7,847 bases of DNA, taken from positions 1 to 7,847 of the forward strand of contig DMIX01000284.1 of assembly GCA_003451975.1 (NCBI GenBank), read 5' to 3'. The translations under genes and the position numbers were made by a program. Positions within the stretch are counted from its first letter, which is position 1; each line of letters opens with the position of its first letter. This document shows positions 1,593 through 7,847 of this stretch, one piece after another. The DNA is from Propionibacteriaceae bacterium. GTDB lineage: Bacteria > Actinomycetota > Actinomycetes > Propionibacteriales > Propionibacteriaceae. The notes beneath the pieces are model-generated. The model saw only the letters and a list, made by a program, of their open reading frames with translations, was not told the DNA's origin and did not search any database.

Positions 1593-1726
1593 CGGGGCTT
1601 CCTCTCGTGGTGGCCACTACCGTCCCAGGCTATCCAAAGCGGGCCGAGACGCGCTGAGCGGAAAACCGGGCAGCGTCAGGGTAGACCCCCATACTCGAAT
1701 CCGACCGGGGGGCGTTGACTTGCCCT
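1593..1726. promoter_or_regulatory. Divergent intergenic region between the kinase and the PspC/toastrack operon
   Basis: The 134-bp gap must hold promoters for both directions. On the minus strand a TAGCCT hexamer (1632-1627) could be a -10 box giving a leader of about 28 nt with a good Shine-Dalgarno, but no convincing -35 is seen. On the plus strand only a weak CATACT (1690-1695) was found. A short dyad GGGTAGACCC (1679-1688) could be a regulator half-site pair; this is speculative. Autoregulation by the response regulator is an inference from the divergent layout only. Confidence 0.4.
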
Positions 1727-2899
1727 GTGACCGACAAACTGCCCGTGCTCAGCCGTCCCCGCGACGGTGCCGTCTTCGGCGGCGTTTGTGCAGGGGTGGC
1801 TCGGCGCCTCGGGATCGATCCAACTGTGCTGCGGGTCATCGCCGTGGCGATCACGGTCTTCCTGGGTGGATTGGGAGTGGCCCTCTACGTGGCCGGGCTA
1901 TTGCTGCTGCCGCGCGATCATGAGCAGTACAGCCCGCTGACCCGCGCCATCCCACTGCTTCGGCGGATGCCGCCGGTCGCACTGGCCGTGATCGTCGTGG
2001 CCCTGGCCGTGGCGATCACCTGGGGTTCGGGCAGTAGCGCGATCCTGGTGCCGGCCGCGATCATCGCCGTGGTGTTGTGGTTCGTCGGCTTTCGGCGTCG
2101 CTCTCAGGCTTCGATTGTTCATACCCCTGAGCCCACCCCGTTCGAACGGGCCGCGGACGCTTGGCGGGCGCGACTGGCCGAGCAACAGGTCCCCGGATTC
2201 GAGGGCTATCAAGCCACCGAGCCTCGCTGGCAGCAGCCCTACACCGACCCCAGCGATCAGTGGGTCGTGGACAATCCACCACCGGTTCCGGCGGTACCTC
2301 CGCAGCCGAAGCGAAGCTGGCGGCTGTGGGGTCTGGCGCTGGCGTTGGCAGGAGTCGGCACCGGAATCGTGGCCGCGCTCTCGATCGTCTTCGGGCTTCC
2401 GGCCGGCGCGGGCGCCTACTTCGCTGCGGTGCTGGCCGCGCTGGGAATCACTGCGGTGGTGGCCTCGCGAGTGGGGCGTCCGCCGCTGCTGATCCCGGCC
2501 ATCATCGTCACAGCCGTGGCTACCGCTGCCGTCCAGTTCGGGCCGAATCCGGGTTATGTCGGGGACTACTCCCGTGTCATCACCAACGAGGACCAACTCC
2601 AACCCGTCCGGGTGGGTGCCGGCTCGGTCAACCTCGACCTGAGCAATCTGGACCTCACCCAGGATCGCGACCTGGACGTCGAGGTGGGCACAGGCGATGT
2701 CACGATCACGCTTCCGCTTGAGGAGGCCGCCACCGTGGACTGGAAACTCGGACTCGGCGAGCTGACTTTCGGCGACGCCGACTTCCCGGTCACGAGCAGC
2801 CACGTCGATTCCTTCCAGAACAATCCGGTCGGCACCGCGCACCACCGAATCACGATCAATCTCAAGGTCGGCGCCGGAGATGTGACGGTGATGCCATGA
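1727..2899 (+). CDS. PspC-domain membrane protein with C-terminal toastrack (LiaF-like) domain
   Basis: A 390-residue polytopic membrane protein. Residues about 9-62 are a PspC domain (FGGVCAGVARRLGID, then a helix ending LLLLP). Hydrophobic helices follow at about 82-98 and 104-121. A hydrophilic, Pro-rich linker (122-198) leads to three more helices (about 199-222, 228-246, 252-270). From about 280 to the end is a beta-rich domain with repeated glycine turns (VGAGSVNLDLSNLDL, VGTGDVTITLP, VGAGDVTVMP), typical of toastrack/DUF2154-like domains in LiaF-type proteins. Inferred role: modulator of the divergent kinase, by analogy with LiaF and the corynebacterial PspC inhibitor EsrI. The start is uncertain. 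GTG 1727 is chosen over TTG 1715, which would add four residues; neither has a well-spaced Shine-Dalgarno (a GGGGGG run lies at about 1707-1712). The stop overlaps the next ATG as ATGA, so it heads a short operon. Confidence 0.88.
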   Translation: MTDKLPVLSRPRDGAVFGGVCAGVARRLGIDPTVLRVIAVAITVFLGGLGVALYVAGLLLLPRDHEQYSPLTRAIPLLRRMPPVALAVIVVALAVAITWGSGSSAILVPAAIIAVVLWFVGFRRRSQASIVHTPEPTPFERAADAWRARLAEQQVPGFEGYQATEPRWQQPYTDPSDQWVVDNPPPVPAVPPQPKRSWRLWGLALALAGVGTGIVAALSIVFGLPAGAGAYFAAVLAALGITAVVASRVGRPPLLIPAIIVTAVATAAVQFGPNPGYVGDYSRVITNEDQLQPVRVGAGSVNLDLSNLDLTQDRDLDVEVGTGDVTITLPLEEAATVDWKLGLGELTFGDADFPVTSSHVDSFQNNPVGTAHHRITINLKVGAGDVTVMP

Positions 2900-3066
2900 G
2901 TTCTGATCGCAACGCTTTCGCCTTCGGCATGGCCGCACTCGCCCTCGCCGCCCTCGGACTGTGGGCCAACTACGGCCAGGTCGACTGGCGCATCGTCGGC
3001 TTGGCCGCACCCATCGCTTTGGTGGTGATCGGTGTGGGCATGTTGGCGATGAGCAAAGACCACTGA
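2896..3066 (+). CDS. Small two-helix membrane protein (56 aa), unknown function
   Basis: A 56-codon ORF starting at the ATG that overlaps the preceding stop (ATGA, 2896-2899) and ending at TGA 3064-3066. The product has a short polar N-terminus (MSSDRNAF), a hydrophobic stretch at about residues 8-24, a short polar turn (NYGQVDWR), a second hydrophobic stretch at about 33-52 and a charged tail (MSKDH). This predicts a small hairpin-like inner-membrane protein. The 4-bp overlap with the toastrack gene and the 20-bp gap to the next PspC gene support real, coupled translation. I recognise no family. Inferred: an accessory membrane component of the same envelope-stress locus. Confidence 0.75.
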   Translation: MSSDRNAFAFGMAALALAALGLWANYGQVDWRIVGLAAPIALVVIGVGMLAMSKDH

Positions 3067-3086
3067 ACCCTCAGAAAGGAAAACCC

Positions 3087-3335
3087 ATGAAAGAACAACT
3101 GATCCGCTCCAGCAGCGACAAGATGATCGCCGGAGTCTGCGGCGGCGTCGCCCGCTCCTTCGGCATCGATGCGAGCATTGTGCGCATCGTATGGGCCTTG
3201 GCCTGCTTCTTTTTCGCACTGCCGGCCGTGCTCTACGTCGTCCTGTGGCTGGTGTTGCCCATCGACGGTGGCGGCACCGGTTTCGACGATCTGAAGAACG
3301 CCTTCAGCAGCAAACCCCCGTCCGACCTGCGCTGA
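3087..3335 (+). CDS. Small stand-alone PspC-domain protein (82 aa)
   Basis: The protein is essentially one PspC domain. Polar N-terminal residues 1-12 lead to MIAGVCGGVARSFGID (about 13-28), one hydrophobic helix containing aromatics (about 34-60, ending YVVLWLVLP) and a short soluble tail with GFDDLKNAF. ATG 3087 is preceded by AGAAAGGA (3073-3080) with 6 nt spacing, a clear Shine-Dalgarno. The longer in-frame reading from 2961 overlaps the previous gene and is not supported. Known: PspC-domain proteins are inner-membrane factors, and in enterobacteria PspC interacts with the PspA/PspB phage-shock proteins; no PspA is seen here. It is the third PspC domain in this locus and could compete with or modulate the kinase. 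The function remains inferred. Confidence 0.88.
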   Translation: MKEQLIRSSSDKMIAGVCGGVARSFGIDASIVRIVWALACFFFALPAVLYVVLWLVLPIDGGGTGFDDLKNAFSSKPPSDLR

Positions 3336-3415: not shown

Positions 3416-4969
3416 CTATTCCCACTCGATGGTGCCCGGTGGCTTGCTGGTGACATCCAGCACCACGCGGTTCACTTCAGGAACCTCGTTGGTGATTCTG
3501 GTGCTGATGCGCTCCAGCAGGTCATAGGGCAGCCGACTCCAATCGGCGGTCATGGCGTCCTCGCTGGAGACCGGGCGCAGCACGATGGGGTGCCCATAGG
3601 TACGACCATCGCCCTGCACCCCGACTGAGCGGACGTCGGCCAGCAGCACCACCGGGAACTGCCAGATCTCACCGTCCAGTCCGGCGGCGGTGGTCTCTTC
3701 GCGGACGATGGCGTCGGCGGCACGCAGAATGCGCAGCCGCTCGGCATCCACCGCTCCCACGATTCGAATCCCCAGCCCGGGCCCGGGGAAGGGATGCCGG
3801 TTCACGATGTGTTGGGGCAATCCCAGCTCACGCCCAACCTGACGCACCTCGTCCTTGAACAGGGTGCGCAGCGGCTCGATCAGCTGGAACTGAAGGTCAT
3901 CGGGCAGGCCACCCACGTTGTGGTGGCTCTTGATGTTGGCCGCTCCCTCACCACCACCTGACTCGACCACATCGGGGTACAAGGTGCCCTGGACGAGGTA
4001 ATCGATGGGACCTTCGTCGTTGATCCGACGAGCCGCATCCTCAAAGGTGCGGATGAACTCCCGGCCGATGATCTTGCGCTTGGTCTCCGGATCACTCACC
4101 CCGGCCAAAGCGCCAAGGAAACGCTCCTGCTCGTTGGCAACCACCAGTTTCACTCCGGTCGAGGCCACGAAATCCTGCTCAACCCGCTCGGCCTCGCCGG
4201 TACGTAGCAGGCCGTGATCGACGAAGACACAGGTGAGCTGATCGCCGATAGCCCGCTGCACCAGCGCAGCCGCCACGGCCGAGTCGACCCCGCCGGACAA
4301 GGCACACAGCACTCGCGCCGAGCCCACCTGGTCGCGGATCCGGGCGATCTGATCCTCGACGATGCTGGCGCTGTCCCAGCTACGCCGACAACCGGCGATC
4401 TTCCACAGGAATTTCTCCAACACGCGTTGGCCGTGCGCCGAGTGCAGCACCTCCGGATGCCATTGGACGCCGGCCAGCCGCCGCTGTGGATCCTCGAAAG
4501 CCGCCACTGTGGCCCGCGGCGAGCGGGCGTTCACCCGGAAACCAGCCGGGGCGGCGACGACCTCATCGCCATGCGACATCCACGACACCAGAGTGTCCGG
4601 CAGTCCGTCGAGCAGGACGCCGGGATCGAGCACCTCCACAGTGGTGCGGCCGTATTCGCGCTGACCCGTCTGAGCGACCGTACCGCCAAGGGCCTGCGCC
4701 ATCGCCATGAAGCCGTAGCAGATACCGAACACCGGGATCCCGGCTTCCAACAGTGCGACATCCAACTGCGGCGCCCCAGCCTCATAAACCGAACTCGGCC
4801 CACCGGAGAGGATCACCGCTTTCGGCTGCTTGGCGAGCAGATCGGCGACACTGATGGTGTGGGGGACGATCTCGGAGTAGACCTCGGCCTCCCGCACCCG
4901 ACGGGCAATGAGTTGGGCGTACTGGGCGCCGTAATCGACAACCAGCACCAGATCATGATCGGCGCTCAT
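3416..4969 (-). CDS. guaA: GMP synthase (glutamine-hydrolysing)
   Basis: Converts XMP, ATP and glutamine to GMP in the cytoplasm, the last step of de novo guanine nucleotide synthesis. The 517-residue length is normal for the family. The N-terminal class I glutamine amidotransferase domain (about 8-190) has [22 protein letters not shown], the nucleophile C84 (GICYG), and H171 and E173 (WHPEV). The ATP-pyrophosphatase domain begins at about 200 with the P-loop SGGVDS (225-230). The C-terminal dimerisation part ends KPPGTIEWE, the conserved XMP-binding tail. ATG 4969 was chosen because the family N-terminus begins just before VLVVDYG. The longer in-frame GTG at 5008 adds 13 residues not expected in the family and would read through the apparent -10 box. 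All key residues are present. It is transcribed alone, divergent from the sulfur operon and convergent with the PspC genes. Confidence 0.97.
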
Positions 4970-4977
4970 GCCTGCTG

Positions 4978-4983
4978 ATTCTA
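4978..4983 (-). promoter_or_regulatory. Candidate -10 box for leaderless guaA
   Basis: Read on the minus strand, TAGAAT sits 8 nt before the guaA ATG at 4969, matching the TANNNT actinobacterial -10 consensus. Initiation 6-8 nt downstream would start the mRNA at or next to the ATG. No Shine-Dalgarno at normal spacing is visible (AGCAGG abuts the ATG), which agrees with a leaderless transcript. No good -35 was found at 16-19 nt. Confidence 0.5.
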
Positions 4984-5017
4984 GGGGTGTCAGGACTGCG
5001 CATTTCACCGCGACGAG

Positions 5018-5048
5018 TTGCCAAACGCCGAATTCATGGTGCTAGCCT
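5018..5048 (+). promoter_or_regulatory. Promoter of the leader peptide / metY-cysK operon
   Basis: TTGCCA (5018-5023) matches the -35 consensus at 5 of 6 positions. TAGCCT (5043-5048) matches the TANNNT -10 box, with a 19-nt spacer. The -10 box occupies exactly -12 to -7 relative to the A of the leader ATG at 5055, so transcription is expected to begin on that ATG and yield a leaderless mRNA. No start site can be measured from sequence alone. Confidence 0.65.
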
Positions 5049-5054
5049 TCAGCC

Positions 5055-5126
5055 ATGACCTCGACGAGCTCCGCAACCATGTGTTGCTGCTGCATGCCGT
5101 CGATGGCGCGTTGTCGAATGTGCTGA
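5055..5126 (+). CDS. Polycysteine leader peptide (23 aa), cysteine-responsive attenuator uORF
   Basis: A 23-codon ORF from ATG 5055 to TGA 5124-5126. It begins MTSTSSATM, then has four consecutive Cys (C10-C13; codons TGT TGC TGC TGC at 5082-5093), with further Cys at 20 and 23, so 6 of 23 residues are Cys. Met is at positions 1, 9, 14, 17 and 22. The ATG lies 7 nt after a TANNNT box and has no Shine-Dalgarno, consistent with leaderless translation. Known: in mycobacteria, polycysteine leaderless short ORFs upstream of cysteine-metabolism operons work as attenuators, where ribosomes stalled on the Cys run block mRNA structure that otherwise sequesters the next gene's ribosome-binding site. 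The next genes here make homocysteine and cysteine, so the same role is inferred. The peptide itself probably has no separate function. An 82-codon ORF in another frame (5018-5266) overlaps it and is judged spurious. Confidence 0.85.
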   Translation: MTSTSSATMCCCCMPSMARCRMC

Positions 5127-5270
5127 ACCAGCCTCGACCCGCATCACCACTCGGTTCGAAAGAACCACGCATTTTCCTGCTCGGACTACGTCCACATCAC
5201 CCGCATTTCCCGCCCCAGGTTTCACCCAGGGGCAGCCAACTGCAGCAGCAACACATCATTCACTAGGAGA
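5073..5270 (+). promoter_or_regulatory. Translational attenuator: long-range pairing of Cys codons with the metY ribosome-binding region
   Basis: Three segments are seen. A: GCAAC (5073-5077). B: ATGTGTTGCTGCTGCA (5079-5094), the M9-C13 codons plus one base. C: TGCAGCAGCAACACAT (5241-5256). B and C are perfectly complementary over 16 nt. C ends 8 nt before the Shine-Dalgarno AGGAGA (5265-5270) of metY. A can instead pair with GTTGC (5083-5087) as a local hairpin. Between B and C are two small hairpins: GGTTC-GAAA-GAACC (5153-5166, GNRA loop) and GCCCC/GGGGC (5212-5233, with an inner GG/CC pair). Inferred switch: with ample Cys-tRNA the ribosome reaches the stop at 5126, B is free and pairs with C, hindering metY initiation. 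With little Cys-tRNA the ribosome stalls on B, C stays open and metY is translated. Confidence 0.7.
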
Positions 5271-5276
5271 AACACC

Positions 5277-6560
5277 ATGTCCTACAGCCTCGACACGCTG
5301 ACCGTCCATGCCGGTCAGGAGGAAGCCGACCCGACTACCCACTCCCGAGCCGTGCCGATCTACCAGACCGCCAGCTATGTCTTCGAGGACACTGAGGACG
5401 CCGCCGACCTCTTCGCACTGCGCAAGCCGGGCAACATCTACTCCCGGATCATGAACCCCACCCAGTCCACTTTCGAGGAGCGGGTCAACGCTCTCGAAGG
5501 CGGCGTCGGCGCGCTCGCCACTGCCTCTGGTGCCGCCGCCATCACCTACGCGGTACTCAACCTCACCTACGCCGGAGACAACATCGTGGCGCTGTCCACG
5601 CTGTACGGCGGCACCTACGCTCTGTTCGCCCACACCCTGGCCCAGTACGGCATCGAGGCTCGGTTCGTGGACCCCGGCAAGCCCGAAGAGTTGGCAGCTC
5701 ACGTCGACGAGAAGACCAAGCTGGTCTTCGGCGAGACCATCGGTAATCCAGCGATCAACGTCATCGACCTCGACGCCTGGTCCGACGCAGCGCACGCACT
5801 CGGCTTGCCATTCATCGTGGACAACACCGTCGCCACCCCGCTGCTGGCACGCGTGTTCGACCACGGCGCCGACATCGCCGTCCACTCGGCTACCAAGTAC
5901 ATCGGCGGGCATGGCACGGCAATCGGCGGCATCATCGTCGACTCCGGGAAGTTCGATTGGGCCGCCCACTCCGAGCGATTCCCCGGGTTGACCAAGGCCG
6001 ATCCGGCCTACCACGGCGCAGTGTGGACCGAAGCCGCCGGCCCGGCGGCCTACATCATCCGCGCCCGCACCGTGCTGCTACGCAACACCGGCGCGACGCT
6101 GAGCCCGTTCAACTCCTGGCTGTTCCTGCAGGGCTTGGAGACGCTGCACCTGCGCATCGAGCGCCATTCGGAGAACGCCTTGGAGGTAGCCCAGTTCCTG
6201 GAGAACCATGAGGCTGTCGCCTGGGTCAACTACCCGGGTTTGGACTCCTCACCGCACAAGGCCACTGCCGATCGGGTGTTGGCCGGACGCGGCTACGGCG
6301 GCATCCTGGCCTTCGGACTCAAGGCTGGACGCCAAGCCGGGGCGACCTTCATCGAATCGCTGAAGCTGTTCAGCCACCTGGCCAACATCGGTGACGCCAA
6401 GAGCCTGGCCATCCACAACGCCACCACCACCCATTCCCAGCTCAACGACGAGGAACTCCTCGCCGCCGGAGTGGCACCCGAAATGGTTCGCCTCAGCATC
6501 GGTATTGAATCCGCCAGTGACTTGATCTCCGACCTGACGCAGGCCCTCGACTCCATCTGA
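5277..6560 (+). CDS. metY: O-acetylhomoserine sulfhydrylase (homocysteine synthase)
   Basis: A PLP enzyme of the Cys/Met metabolism family, 427 residues, which matches the longer MetY type rather than the shorter MetB/MetC type. It is expected to make homocysteine from O-acetylhomoserine and sulfide in the cytoplasm (direct sulfhydrylation). Visible landmarks: N-terminal [18 protein letters not shown] (55-62; Y55 and R57 contact cofactor phosphate in the family), SGAAA (84-88), Y110 stacking on PLP (TLYGGTY), GETIGNP (152-158), D182 (VDNT), the Schiff-base lysine K207 ([11 protein letters not shown]) and the C-terminal VRLSIGIES. The start ATG 5277 has AGGAGA 6 nt upstream. It is the first structural gene after the polycysteine leader and is followed by cysK after 32 bp. 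Some family members also accept O-acetylserine; sequence inspection cannot exclude this. Confidence 0.95.
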
Positions 6561-6592: not shown

Positions 6593-7519
6593 ATGACGTA
6601 CTACGAAGATGCAACCAAGCTGGTGGGGCGAACCCCACTGGTCAAGATCAACCGCCTCTATGGCGACACGACCGCCACCGTGCTGGCCAAGCTGGAGTAC
6701 TACAACCCGGCGAACTCGGTGAAGGACCGCATCGGGGTGGCGATCATCGACGCCGCCGAGGCCGACGGATCACTCAAGCCGGGTGGCACCATCGTCGAAG
6801 GCACCAGTGGCAACACCGGAATCGCGTTGGCCTGGGTGGGTGCGGCACGCGGCTACCGGGTGATCCTGGCCATGCCGGAGACCATGAGCAAGGAACGCCG
6901 GGCCTTGCTGCGGGCGTTCGGGGCCGAACTGGTCCTCACCCCCGGGCCGGAGGGCATGCAGGGCGCTGTGACCAAAGCCGAGCAGCTTGCTGCTGAGATC
7001 CCCGGTGCGATTTTGGCCCGACAGTTCGCGAACCCGGCCAATCCGGATATCCACCGGCGAACCACCGCCGAGGAGATTTGGGCCGACACCGATGGCGCCG
7101 TGGACTTCGTGATCGCCGGGATCGGTACCGGTGGCACCGTCACCGGAATCGGCCAGCGGCTCAAGGAGCACAATCCCGACATCAAGATCGTCGCCGTGGA
7201 ACCTGCCGAGTCACCGCTGCTGACCGAAGGCAAGGCCGGACCGCACAAGATCCAGGGCATCGGTGCGAACTTCGTGCCCGAAATCCTCGACCAGAGCGTC
7301 ATCAACCGGGTACTGACGGTGACCAGTGACGACGCCCTCGCCTGGGCCCGTCGGGCGGCCGCCGAAGAGGGACTCCTCGTCGGGATCTCCGCGGGAGCCG
7401 CGCTGAAGGCCGCCGAGCATGTGGTGCAGAACCATCCCGATGCCACCATCGTGGTCATCCTTCCCGACTGGGGTGAGCGCTACTTGTCGACCCCGCTGTA
7501 CGCCGACCTGCTCGACTAG
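6593..7519 (+). CDS. cysK: Cysteine synthase (O-acetylserine sulfhydrylase)
   Basis: Makes cysteine from O-acetylserine and sulfide using PLP in the cytoplasm. The 308-residue length is normal for CysK. Motifs: VGRTPLVKI near the start, the PLP lysine K44 (NPANSVKDR), the substrate loop TSGNTG (71-76), the phosphate loop GTGGT (178-182) and S266 (GISAGAA), which bonds the PLP ring nitrogen. The C-terminus [13 protein letters not shown] is typical of the family. There is no fused regulatory CBS domain, which argues against cystathionine beta-synthase, although that enzyme shares the fold. ATG 6593 is preceded by AAAGGGAGAG (6575-6584) at 8 nt. It lies 32 bp after metY on the same strand, so both probably share one mRNA and the leader control. 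Confidence 0.96.
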
Positions 7520-7586: not shown

Positions 7587-7847
7587 ATGAACCAGCCCGC
7601 CCCCGCTCCCGAAGGCGTCGCACCACTCGCCCTTCGGCCCGCGACCATCGCCGCCCGAGCCGGGATATCCACCGACACCAGCTACGGTGCTGTGGCACCG
7701 CCGCTGCACCTGTCGGCAACCTTCCAGTTCGAAGCGCTCGGCCGTCCGCGCCGCTACGACTACACCCGGTCGGGGAACCCGACCCGTGACCTTTTCGGCC
7801 AGGCTGTCGCCGACCTTGAGGGCGGCGCCAGTGGCTGCGTGACAGCC
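7587..7847 (+). CDS. metB: Cystathionine gamma-synthase (N-terminal part, runs off the window)
   Basis: The 87 visible residues match the start of MetB. After a Pro/Ala-rich N-terminal tail (MNQPAPAPEGVAPLALRP) come ATIAARAG, YGAVAPPLHLSATF, YDYTRSGNPTRD (the tyrosine and arginine that bind PLP phosphate from the partner subunit) and LEGGASG. The family also contains cystathionine gamma- and beta-lyases and O-succinylhomoserine sulfhydrylase. The YGAVAPPLHLSATF and YDYTRSGNPTRD stretches look most like cystathionine gamma-synthase, which condenses an O-acylhomoserine with cysteine. The catalytic lysine lies outside the window, so the exact activity is not proven. ATG 7587 has GGAAAG (7573-7578) 8 nt upstream. 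It lies 67 bp after cysK on the same strand, beyond the hairpin, so co-transcription is likely but perhaps attenuated. Confidence 0.88.
   Translation, partial: MNQPAPAPEGVAPLALRPATIAARAGISTDTSYGAVAPPLHLSATFQFEALGRPRRYDYTRSGNPTRDLFGQAVADLEGGASGCVTA

Follow-up and report, generated by a model that had tools for sequence, protein, structure and literature searches.

Ahead of metY in this member of the genus Propionicimonas lies a short leader ORF whose run of Cys codons is complementary, over 16 nt, to the segment that precedes the metY Shine-Dalgarno sequence. Can this match act as an RNA switch through which cysteine supply sets the expression of the sulfur genes downstream? Folding and modelled ribosome positions indicate that it is a predicted long-range mRNA helix, joining the Cys codons to the upstream half of the metY docking site, and that this helix probably serves as a cysteine-responsive translational attenuator. 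Three links are inferred: translation of the leader, cysteine as the signal, and regulation at the translational level. The window, the whole 7,847-nt stretch of DNA analysed here, is part of a 455-contig genome.

A cysteine leader upstream of metY and cysK

The leader and the genes that follow it are laid out as listed here.

5018–5023, + strand: −35-like hexamer TTGCCA (TTGACC in the majority of relatives), from the pattern TTG[AC]C in relatives
5043–5048, + strand: −10-like hexamer TAGCCT, 6 nt 5′ of the leader ATG, from the pattern TANNNT in relatives
5055–5126, + strand: leader ORF MTSTSSATMCCCCMPSMARCRMC plus stop, its ATG and TGA being shared by 16 leaders
5082–5093, + strand: Cys codons TGT TGC TGC TGC (codons 10–13), putative sensing site, from the sequence and a codon table of 16 leaders
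5112–5123, + strand: second Cys pair TGT CGA ATG TGC, ahead of the stop, from the codon table and pattern matches; TGTCGAATG is also found in other genera
5277–6560, + strand: metY, O-acetylhomoserine/O-acetylserine sulfhydrylase (TIGR01326, 621.5 bits; cut-off 495.1)
6593–7519, + strand: cysK, cysteine synthase A (TIGR01139, 434.8 bits; cut-off 350.95)
7587–7847, + strand: 5′ part of a cystathionine gamma-synthase-like gene that ends at the window edge (partial match)

The leader ORF encodes 23 residues (24 codons with the stop) and lies 5′ of metY and cysK. Its four consecutive Cys codons (CCCC, codons 10–13) ahead of these sulfur genes are the arrangement by which a polycysteine attenuator is recognized. 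By family assignment, the products of the genes 3′ of the leader make homocysteine and cysteine. The metY and cysK genes, both on the + strand, are separated by 32 nt, and cysK is likely the second operon gene after metY. The top matches of the partial gene at 7587 are O-succinylhomoserine (thiol)-lyase and cystathionine gamma-synthase, both partial and under their cut-offs. The guaA gene, on the − strand, is directed away from the leader–metY–cysK unit. Elsewhere in the window, genes that read as encoding a response regulator, a sensor kinase with a PspC-like domain and small membrane proteins resembling PspC are arranged divergently, at 1–1592 on the − strand and 1715–3335 on the + strand.

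Among the 16 leaders compared below, for which the start codons of the relatives were assigned by script, TTG[AC]C is located at −38 to −36 from the leader ATG in 15 and is missing in one (L007), and TANNNT is located at −13 or −12 in all 16, with the hexamer 6–7 nt 5′ of the ATG. This conserved spacing predicts a transcript that starts at or beside the leader ATG, that is, a leaderless one. A strict consensus promoter scan of 4960–5330 gave no promoter-like site, and the leaderless-promoter pattern has 10 matches in its own genome as opposed to 6 for the reversed control. Substitution ratios over the leader are indecisive for the reading frame, since pN/pS in the Cys frame (0.66) is equalled in the +1 frame (0.62) and one reverse frame (0.59); the +2 frame has 1.08. 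The sequence case for the Cys frame rests on the common start, stop and Cys codons and on the promoter distance. No family was matched in an NCBIfam search with the leader peptides. Rfam covariance models (T-box, SAM and other riboswitches), run over the whole window at E up to 1, gave no match in the leader; their sole match in the window, at 1413–1477, is far under its gathering score.

An exact 16-nt match that is predicted to fold into a long-range helix

The earlier note had described two exact reverse complements, one covering the leader Cys codons and the other just before the metY Shine-Dalgarno sequence; both the letters and the coordinates are correct.

5079–5094, + strand: arm 1 of the long-range helix, ATGTGTTGCTGCTGCA, exact complement of 5241–5256 and paired in the minimum free energy (MFE) fold
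5241–5256, + strand: arm 2, the anti-Cys strand, TGCAGCAGCAACACAT, at −36 to −21 from the metY ATG, exact complement of arm 1 and paired with it in the fold
5265–5269, + strand: Shine-Dalgarno sequence AGGAG of metY, from the sequence
5264–5284, + strand: small local hairpin TAGGA/TCCTA, in which the Shine-Dalgarno sequence is paired with metY codons 2–3, from the fold and the same under the modelled stall

Arm 1 consists of the ATG of codon 9, Cys codons 10–13 and one base of codon 14, and no further Watson–Crick pair is possible at either end of the match. Its length is the longest of any exact inverted repeat in the 237-nt leader. Dinucleotide-preserving shuffles give 5–11 nt, with 0 of 400 above 11, which bears out the proposal that so long a match is improbable by chance. 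When a 237-nt segment is slid along the window (n = 129), the segment that holds both arms gives 16, an overlapping one gives 12 and the rest give at most 11.

In the fold of 5055–5290, all 16 pairs are present in both the MFE and centroid structures, and the helix is retained when metY sequence is added. The MFE of this region is −79.9 kcal/mol, compared with −61.45 ± 4.4 kcal/mol for shuffles (z −4.19), and 0 of 200 shuffles equal it. Arm 2 lies just before the Shine-Dalgarno sequence, as the earlier note had it: the helix ends 8 nt 5′ of AGGAG, and arm 2 thus precedes this sequence and does not cover it. A separate candidate, sequestration of the Shine-Dalgarno sequence by a leader CUCC, appeared in a shorter fold and was dropped because the Shine-Dalgarno sequence pairs locally once 54–60 nt of metY are included; the CTCC at that position is kept in 4 of 16 leaders.

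A modelled ribosome on the Cys codons frees the upstream docking region

The ribosome was modelled as a 28-nt mask moved codon by codon, without kinetics. In the ribosome-free window, opening the docking region from −35 to +12 costs 22.9 kcal/mol. With the A-site at Cys codons 10–13 the cost is 10–12 kcal/mol, whereas it is 25–27 kcal/mol at codons 2–5 and 24–25 kcal/mol at codons 19–24 (24 at the leader stop). The docking region is thus freed by a footprint on codons 10–13 but not by one at the stop. Over the shorter region from −20 to +12, the cost in the window changes from 9.0 to 7–8 kcal/mol under the Cys stall, and a mask on the first codons also gives 7; relief over this shorter region reaches roughly 3–6 kcal/mol in six relatives (L009, L004, L006, L092, L094 and L095).

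The earlier note had proposed that a stalled ribosome masks one arm and keeps the metY start open. The first part is reproduced by the model, in which arm 2 is mostly freed and the docking cost is halved, but the start itself is little changed, with a predicted Shine-Dalgarno exposure of 0.22 free and 0.21 stalled. Masking 5070–5105, the check suggested in the earlier note, gives a similar picture: the MFE structure no longer contains the helix and leaves 10 of the 16 bases of arm 2 without a partner, but the Shine-Dalgarno sequence pairs with 5280–5283 either way. Because its exposure is constant, any effect must lie in the −36 to −21 part of the docking site, so that a gate, if there is one, works through the upstream half of the site where the 30S subunit docks.

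Under this proposal, a ribosome in cysteine-sufficient cells would complete the leader and depart, the arms would pair, and the helix at −36 to −21 would impede docking of the 30S subunit at metY. A shortage of Cys-tRNA would instead halt the ribosome on codons 10–13, where it would cover arm 1, and metY and cysK would be produced.

The relief was compared, for a stall at codon 11, with 60 controls per leader in which the −50 to −14 region was shuffled. It goes beyond all 60 controls in four leaders (L001, L002, L007 and L009) and is reached by 2 of 60 controls in L010 and by 3 of 60 in each of L004 and L092. In the remaining 9 of 16 (L003, L006, L008, L091, L093, L094, L095, L015 and L099), it is not significant.

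The leader is widespread in the genus and the strong pairing is not

Among 30 genomes of the genus, 24 carry metY (E 1e-150 or better), and in 16 of these 24 a 24-codon leader with adjacent Cys codons occupies the same place. Two others have reduced forms, a shorter CRC leader (L011) and a short MCLRMR leader (L100). No comparable leader lies 5′ of metY in L005, L019, L021, L096 or L097, although L097 has CC in another short ORF and L096 has a single Cys ahead of a stop; in L098, the contig ends inside metY and offers no upstream sequence. The genus-mate L005, which lacks the leader, has a palindrome-like sequence, GTGTATACACGTACGTACAC, at −98 to −79 from the metY start, perhaps an operator that has replaced the leader.

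In the 16 leaders, which were selected for adjacent Cys codons, Cys is encoded at codon 11 in all 16, at codon 20 in 15, at codons 10 and 13 in 14 each and at codon 12 in 13. The TCG ATG of codons 16–17 and the TGA stop are invariant, and 14 of the leaders use CGA for Arg at codon 21. The upstream region was extracted for 90 of the listed places; of 90 loci considered for addition, 34 were left out for having no start motif, among them L098 and named duplicates. Two sets of control metY regions, 89 and 98 in number, were chosen by script as having no Cys leader and being distinct by sequence, and include at least one named duplicate (L140) of a leader-bearing locus (L042).

Arm pairing as good as that observed is found in 0 of 89 control regions for L001, L002, L010 and L007. 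It is found in 1 for L092, 5 for L009, 8 for L006, 10 for L095 and 19 for L004, and in 20 for L008, 20 for L093, 32 for L099, 34 for L091, 35 for L094, 61 for L003 and 68 for L015. The exact match is 16 nt long in L001 and L002 and 13 nt in L010, lengths that 0 of 89 controls equal. Compared with shuffles over the last 45 nt before metY, the duplex energy is significant (p ≤ 0.04) in 5 of 16 leaders (L001, L002, L007, L009 and L010) and shows no excess at p 0.05 in the other 11; over the last 30 nt, only L008 is significant (p 0.03). Four of the 16 leaders, including the near-identical L001 and L002, thus pair more strongly than both kinds of control, and L009 comes close. When anti-Cys strands are swapped between leaders, own strands have a mean of −22.7 kcal/mol versus −21.5 kcal/mol for swapped ones (permutation p 0.029 over 45 nt; p 0.051 over 30 nt), in a test whose effective number is smaller than its count because the near-identical L001 and L002 are counted apart.

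Six leaders can be aligned in register if a 3-nt insertion in L008 and L009 is left out. Pairs 5, 7–10, 12 and 14 are Watson–Crick in all six. Pair 4 is U–A in four leaders, G–C in L009 and broken (G·A) in L008, which has the same leader change as L009. This is one compensatory change, from U–A to G–C in L009, of which L008 is likely the intermediate; covariation has little room here because the Cys codons are themselves constrained. In the metY tree, L003, which lacks the arm pairing, is the sister of the window's pair L001/L002 (support 96/92), and L007/L010 and L008/L009 sit on other, unresolved branches. From this placement, the arm pairing is either old and decaying or arose more than once. 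The earlier note had looked to conservation and covariation in relatives, and the outcome is divided: five of 16 leaders pair above shuffles, four of these above the 89 controls, with one compensatory change, but L003 is unpaired and pair 4 is broken in L008. A common helix for the whole genus was sought and not found, given the 11 leaders with no excess over shuffles and the 9 with no significant stall relief.

A second metY leader (L190) lies on contig 188 of assembly G149 and differs from L093 in both the third base of codon 10 and the anti-Cys strand; it perhaps belongs to a second strain in the G149 bin. In a codon-swap comparison, L190 pairs best with its own strand (−19.4 versus −13.7 and −15.9), L093 is neutral (−15.2 versus −15.1 and −13.7) and L094 is worst with its own (−17.1 versus −19.3 and −19.4).

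Alternative explanations for the match

The uneven distribution of the pairing bears on how far the proposed attenuator can be extended beyond the window. It is quite possible, if somewhat short of an even chance, that the leader senses cysteine throughout, that most of the genus uses other, lineage-specific pairings, and that pairing was recently strengthened to the 16-bp helix in the species pair that includes the window. This would explain why strong arm pairing is not found throughout the 16 genomes that carry the leader, and other anti-Cys strands do occur at the Shine-Dalgarno sequence in relatives, for example CAACACA in L190 and CATTCGACAA in L012; L010, L007 and L009, on other branches, nevertheless pair codons 9–13 in the same register (L009 with its 3-nt insertion). 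For the window itself, such a history is compatible with the attenuator that we favour. A tentative and rather doubtful extension is that the switch is codon-templated, the starvation codons being one strand of the repressing helix, with the anti-Cys strand rewritten in each lineage while the leader peptide stays fixed. The choice of TGC or TGT would then be set by the anti-Cys strand before metY, because the Cys codons form the helix strand, and the locus would offer a clean case of synonymous codon choice under RNA-pairing selection. At the other extreme, the pairing could be a by-product of TGC and TGT Cys codons meeting a CA-rich, unstructured, translation-enhancing region, with no regulatory role. 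The Shine-Dalgarno-proximal regions of the leader species are indeed A-rich and T-poor, and the 11 pairings no better than shuffles are what it would lead one to expect, but the exact lengths in L001/L002 (16 nt) and L010 (13 nt), equalled by 0 of 89 controls, together with the compensatory G–C in L009, make it improbable. Still harder to credit is that an alternative ORF at 5018–5266 on the + strand, 82 codons long and ending on the Shine-Dalgarno sequence, is a real gene coupled to metY. It is open in the window and ends at −10, as in L002 (−10) and nearly so in L010 (−8), but its end is scattered from −99 to +1352 in the remaining 13 leaders, twice being the metY frame itself; this alternative frame shows no constraint, with a pN/pS over the leader of 1.08 versus 0.66 in the Cys frame, and its TTG start coincides with the −35-like element.

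The rival that touches the mechanism most directly concerns the region between the leader and arm 2.

5127–5240, + strand: C-rich, G-poor spacer, a possible Rho-loading region, from the C/G ratio

In Rho-dependent transcription attenuation, this spacer would load Rho once ribosomes leave, a stall near the stop (codons 20–23) or an altered RNA fold would prevent the loading, and the 16-bp helix would be secondary. The C/G ratio is 2.21 over 5127–5256, and the spacers of the 16 leaders, at 1.46–2.41, have the C-rich, G-poor composition expected of a Rho-dependent (tna-like) attenuator. From −140 to −20, the median is 1.98 in the 16 leaders (1.27–2.32) compared with 1.05 in the 98 control metY regions, although 15 of these 98 have a ratio of at least 1.46. 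No intrinsic terminator (a G+C-rich hairpin followed by a U-run) was found in 4960–5330, and the longest T-run in the spacer is at most 4 in all 16 leaders. Rho has also been proposed for the Cys leaders of Mycobacterium and Propionibacterium acnes, there called rather weak in the part of that study consulted (Seliverstov et al. 2005, PMC1262725). Among nine other Cys leaders of the family, six have C/G below 1.4 (L012 1.19, L036 0.69, L038 1.07, L042 1.35, L052 0.77 and L040 0.95), which speaks against Rho, and three lie above it (L014 2.38, L033 1.78 and L031 1.71). With a ribosome stalled on codons 10–13, most of the spacer is uncovered and would still be open to Rho loading, and an exact match that involves the Cys codons themselves is left unaccounted for. 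Rho-dependent control therefore appears unlikely, but, with a C-rich spacer and no intrinsic terminator, it keeps real weight, and the claim that a complete on/off mechanism can be read from the sequence alone goes too far.

Relation to known attenuators

Polycysteine attenuators, leaderless short ORFs of mycobacteria, have reportedly been described by Canestrari and colleagues. On our best reading of the model, the locus would belong with these mycobacterial attenuators and would be unusual in that the sensing codons make up a full strand of the predicted helix. As in mycobacteria, a short ORF with a Cys run, predicted to be leaderless, lies 5′ of sulfur genes, and a stalled ribosome is proposed to block a structure at the next ribosome-binding site. 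Compared by description, the two differ in bacterial family and in gene (here metY–cysK), and in that the Cys codons here are the full strand of a 16-bp helix that ends before the Shine-Dalgarno sequence, not on it. In the portions consulted, control of the mycobacterial attenuators is placed at translation (PMC13236596, PMC9031893), and leaderless mycobacterial mRNAs are described as carrying Cys-rich small ORFs (Shell et al. 2015, PMC4633059). For the cys operons of Mycobacterium and P. acnes, and for Bifidobacterium cbs, Cys leader peptides had been predicted earlier; the portion consulted reports no conserved terminator hairpin in Mycobacterium and leaves the mode of regulation unknown, with Rho suggested and rated rather weak (Seliverstov et al. 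2005, PMC1262725). Similar to the P. acnes cases, which come from the same bacterial family, the leader here has a Cys run 5′ of sulfur genes; as opposed to what that portion describes, a concrete pairing is proposed (PMC1262725).

The comparison extends to classical leader-peptide systems. As in the trp and ilv attenuators, stalling at starved codons would select the RNA fold, but unlike them no terminator hairpin with a U-run is found here (4960–5330). In erm-type translation attenuators, which depend on arrest peptides, the ribosome that translates the leader disrupts a helix located at the start site of the gene that follows. The leader ribosome is proposed to do the same here, although the signal would be a shortage of Cys-tRNA and not a drug, and the predicted helix misses the Shine-Dalgarno sequence. 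Among the matches listed, in a search outside which most subscription journals lie, no paper dealt with a leader of metY or with a helix formed by Cys codons in Propionibacteriaceae. The locus offers a concrete single-helix hypothesis for propionibacterial Cys leader control and extends predicted cysteine-responsive leader control to a metY–cysK operon of Propionicimonas.

Cysteine leaders in the wider family

The leader end TGTTGTCGAATG (CCRM; 5112–5126 in the window) is found again, with hardly a letter changed, in several genera. CCRM leaders lie 5′ of metY in another genus (L012, L014, L033, L036, L038, L042 and L211) and, where names come from our reading of the proteins, 5′ of thioredoxin-like genes (L192, L199 and L200) and of a cysteine-dioxygenase-like gene (L206 and L207). 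The placements ahead of thioredoxin-like and cysteine-dioxygenase-like genes suggest that the family has a broader regulon of cysteine leaders, and the pattern alone proves nothing, since one match (L202) lies inside a coding gene resembling a histidine kinase.

Some of these leader ends have pairing partners of their own. In L012, the leader end pairs over 10 nt with CATTCGACAA, a strand touching the Shine-Dalgarno sequence, and, in L206 and L207, it pairs over 9 and 8 nt, respectively, with a strand directly 3′ of the leader stop. Exact pairing of the motif TTGTCGAATG with the Shine-Dalgarno strand reaches 10 nt in L012, 7 nt in L036 and L038 and 8 nt in L211, and only 4–5 nt in L191, L192, L199 and L200. 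As a family-wide feature, this pairing was rejected: taken together, the nine family leaders tested show no significant effect (mean z −0.56 and −0.43).

In a further propionibacterial genus, for which nine loci were fetched, Cys-rich short ORFs lie clearly 5′ of cysK in two of the eight readable ones (L217 and L219). These ORFs end in CICRCCC and CSTCQCCC, and L215 and L218 are weaker cases.
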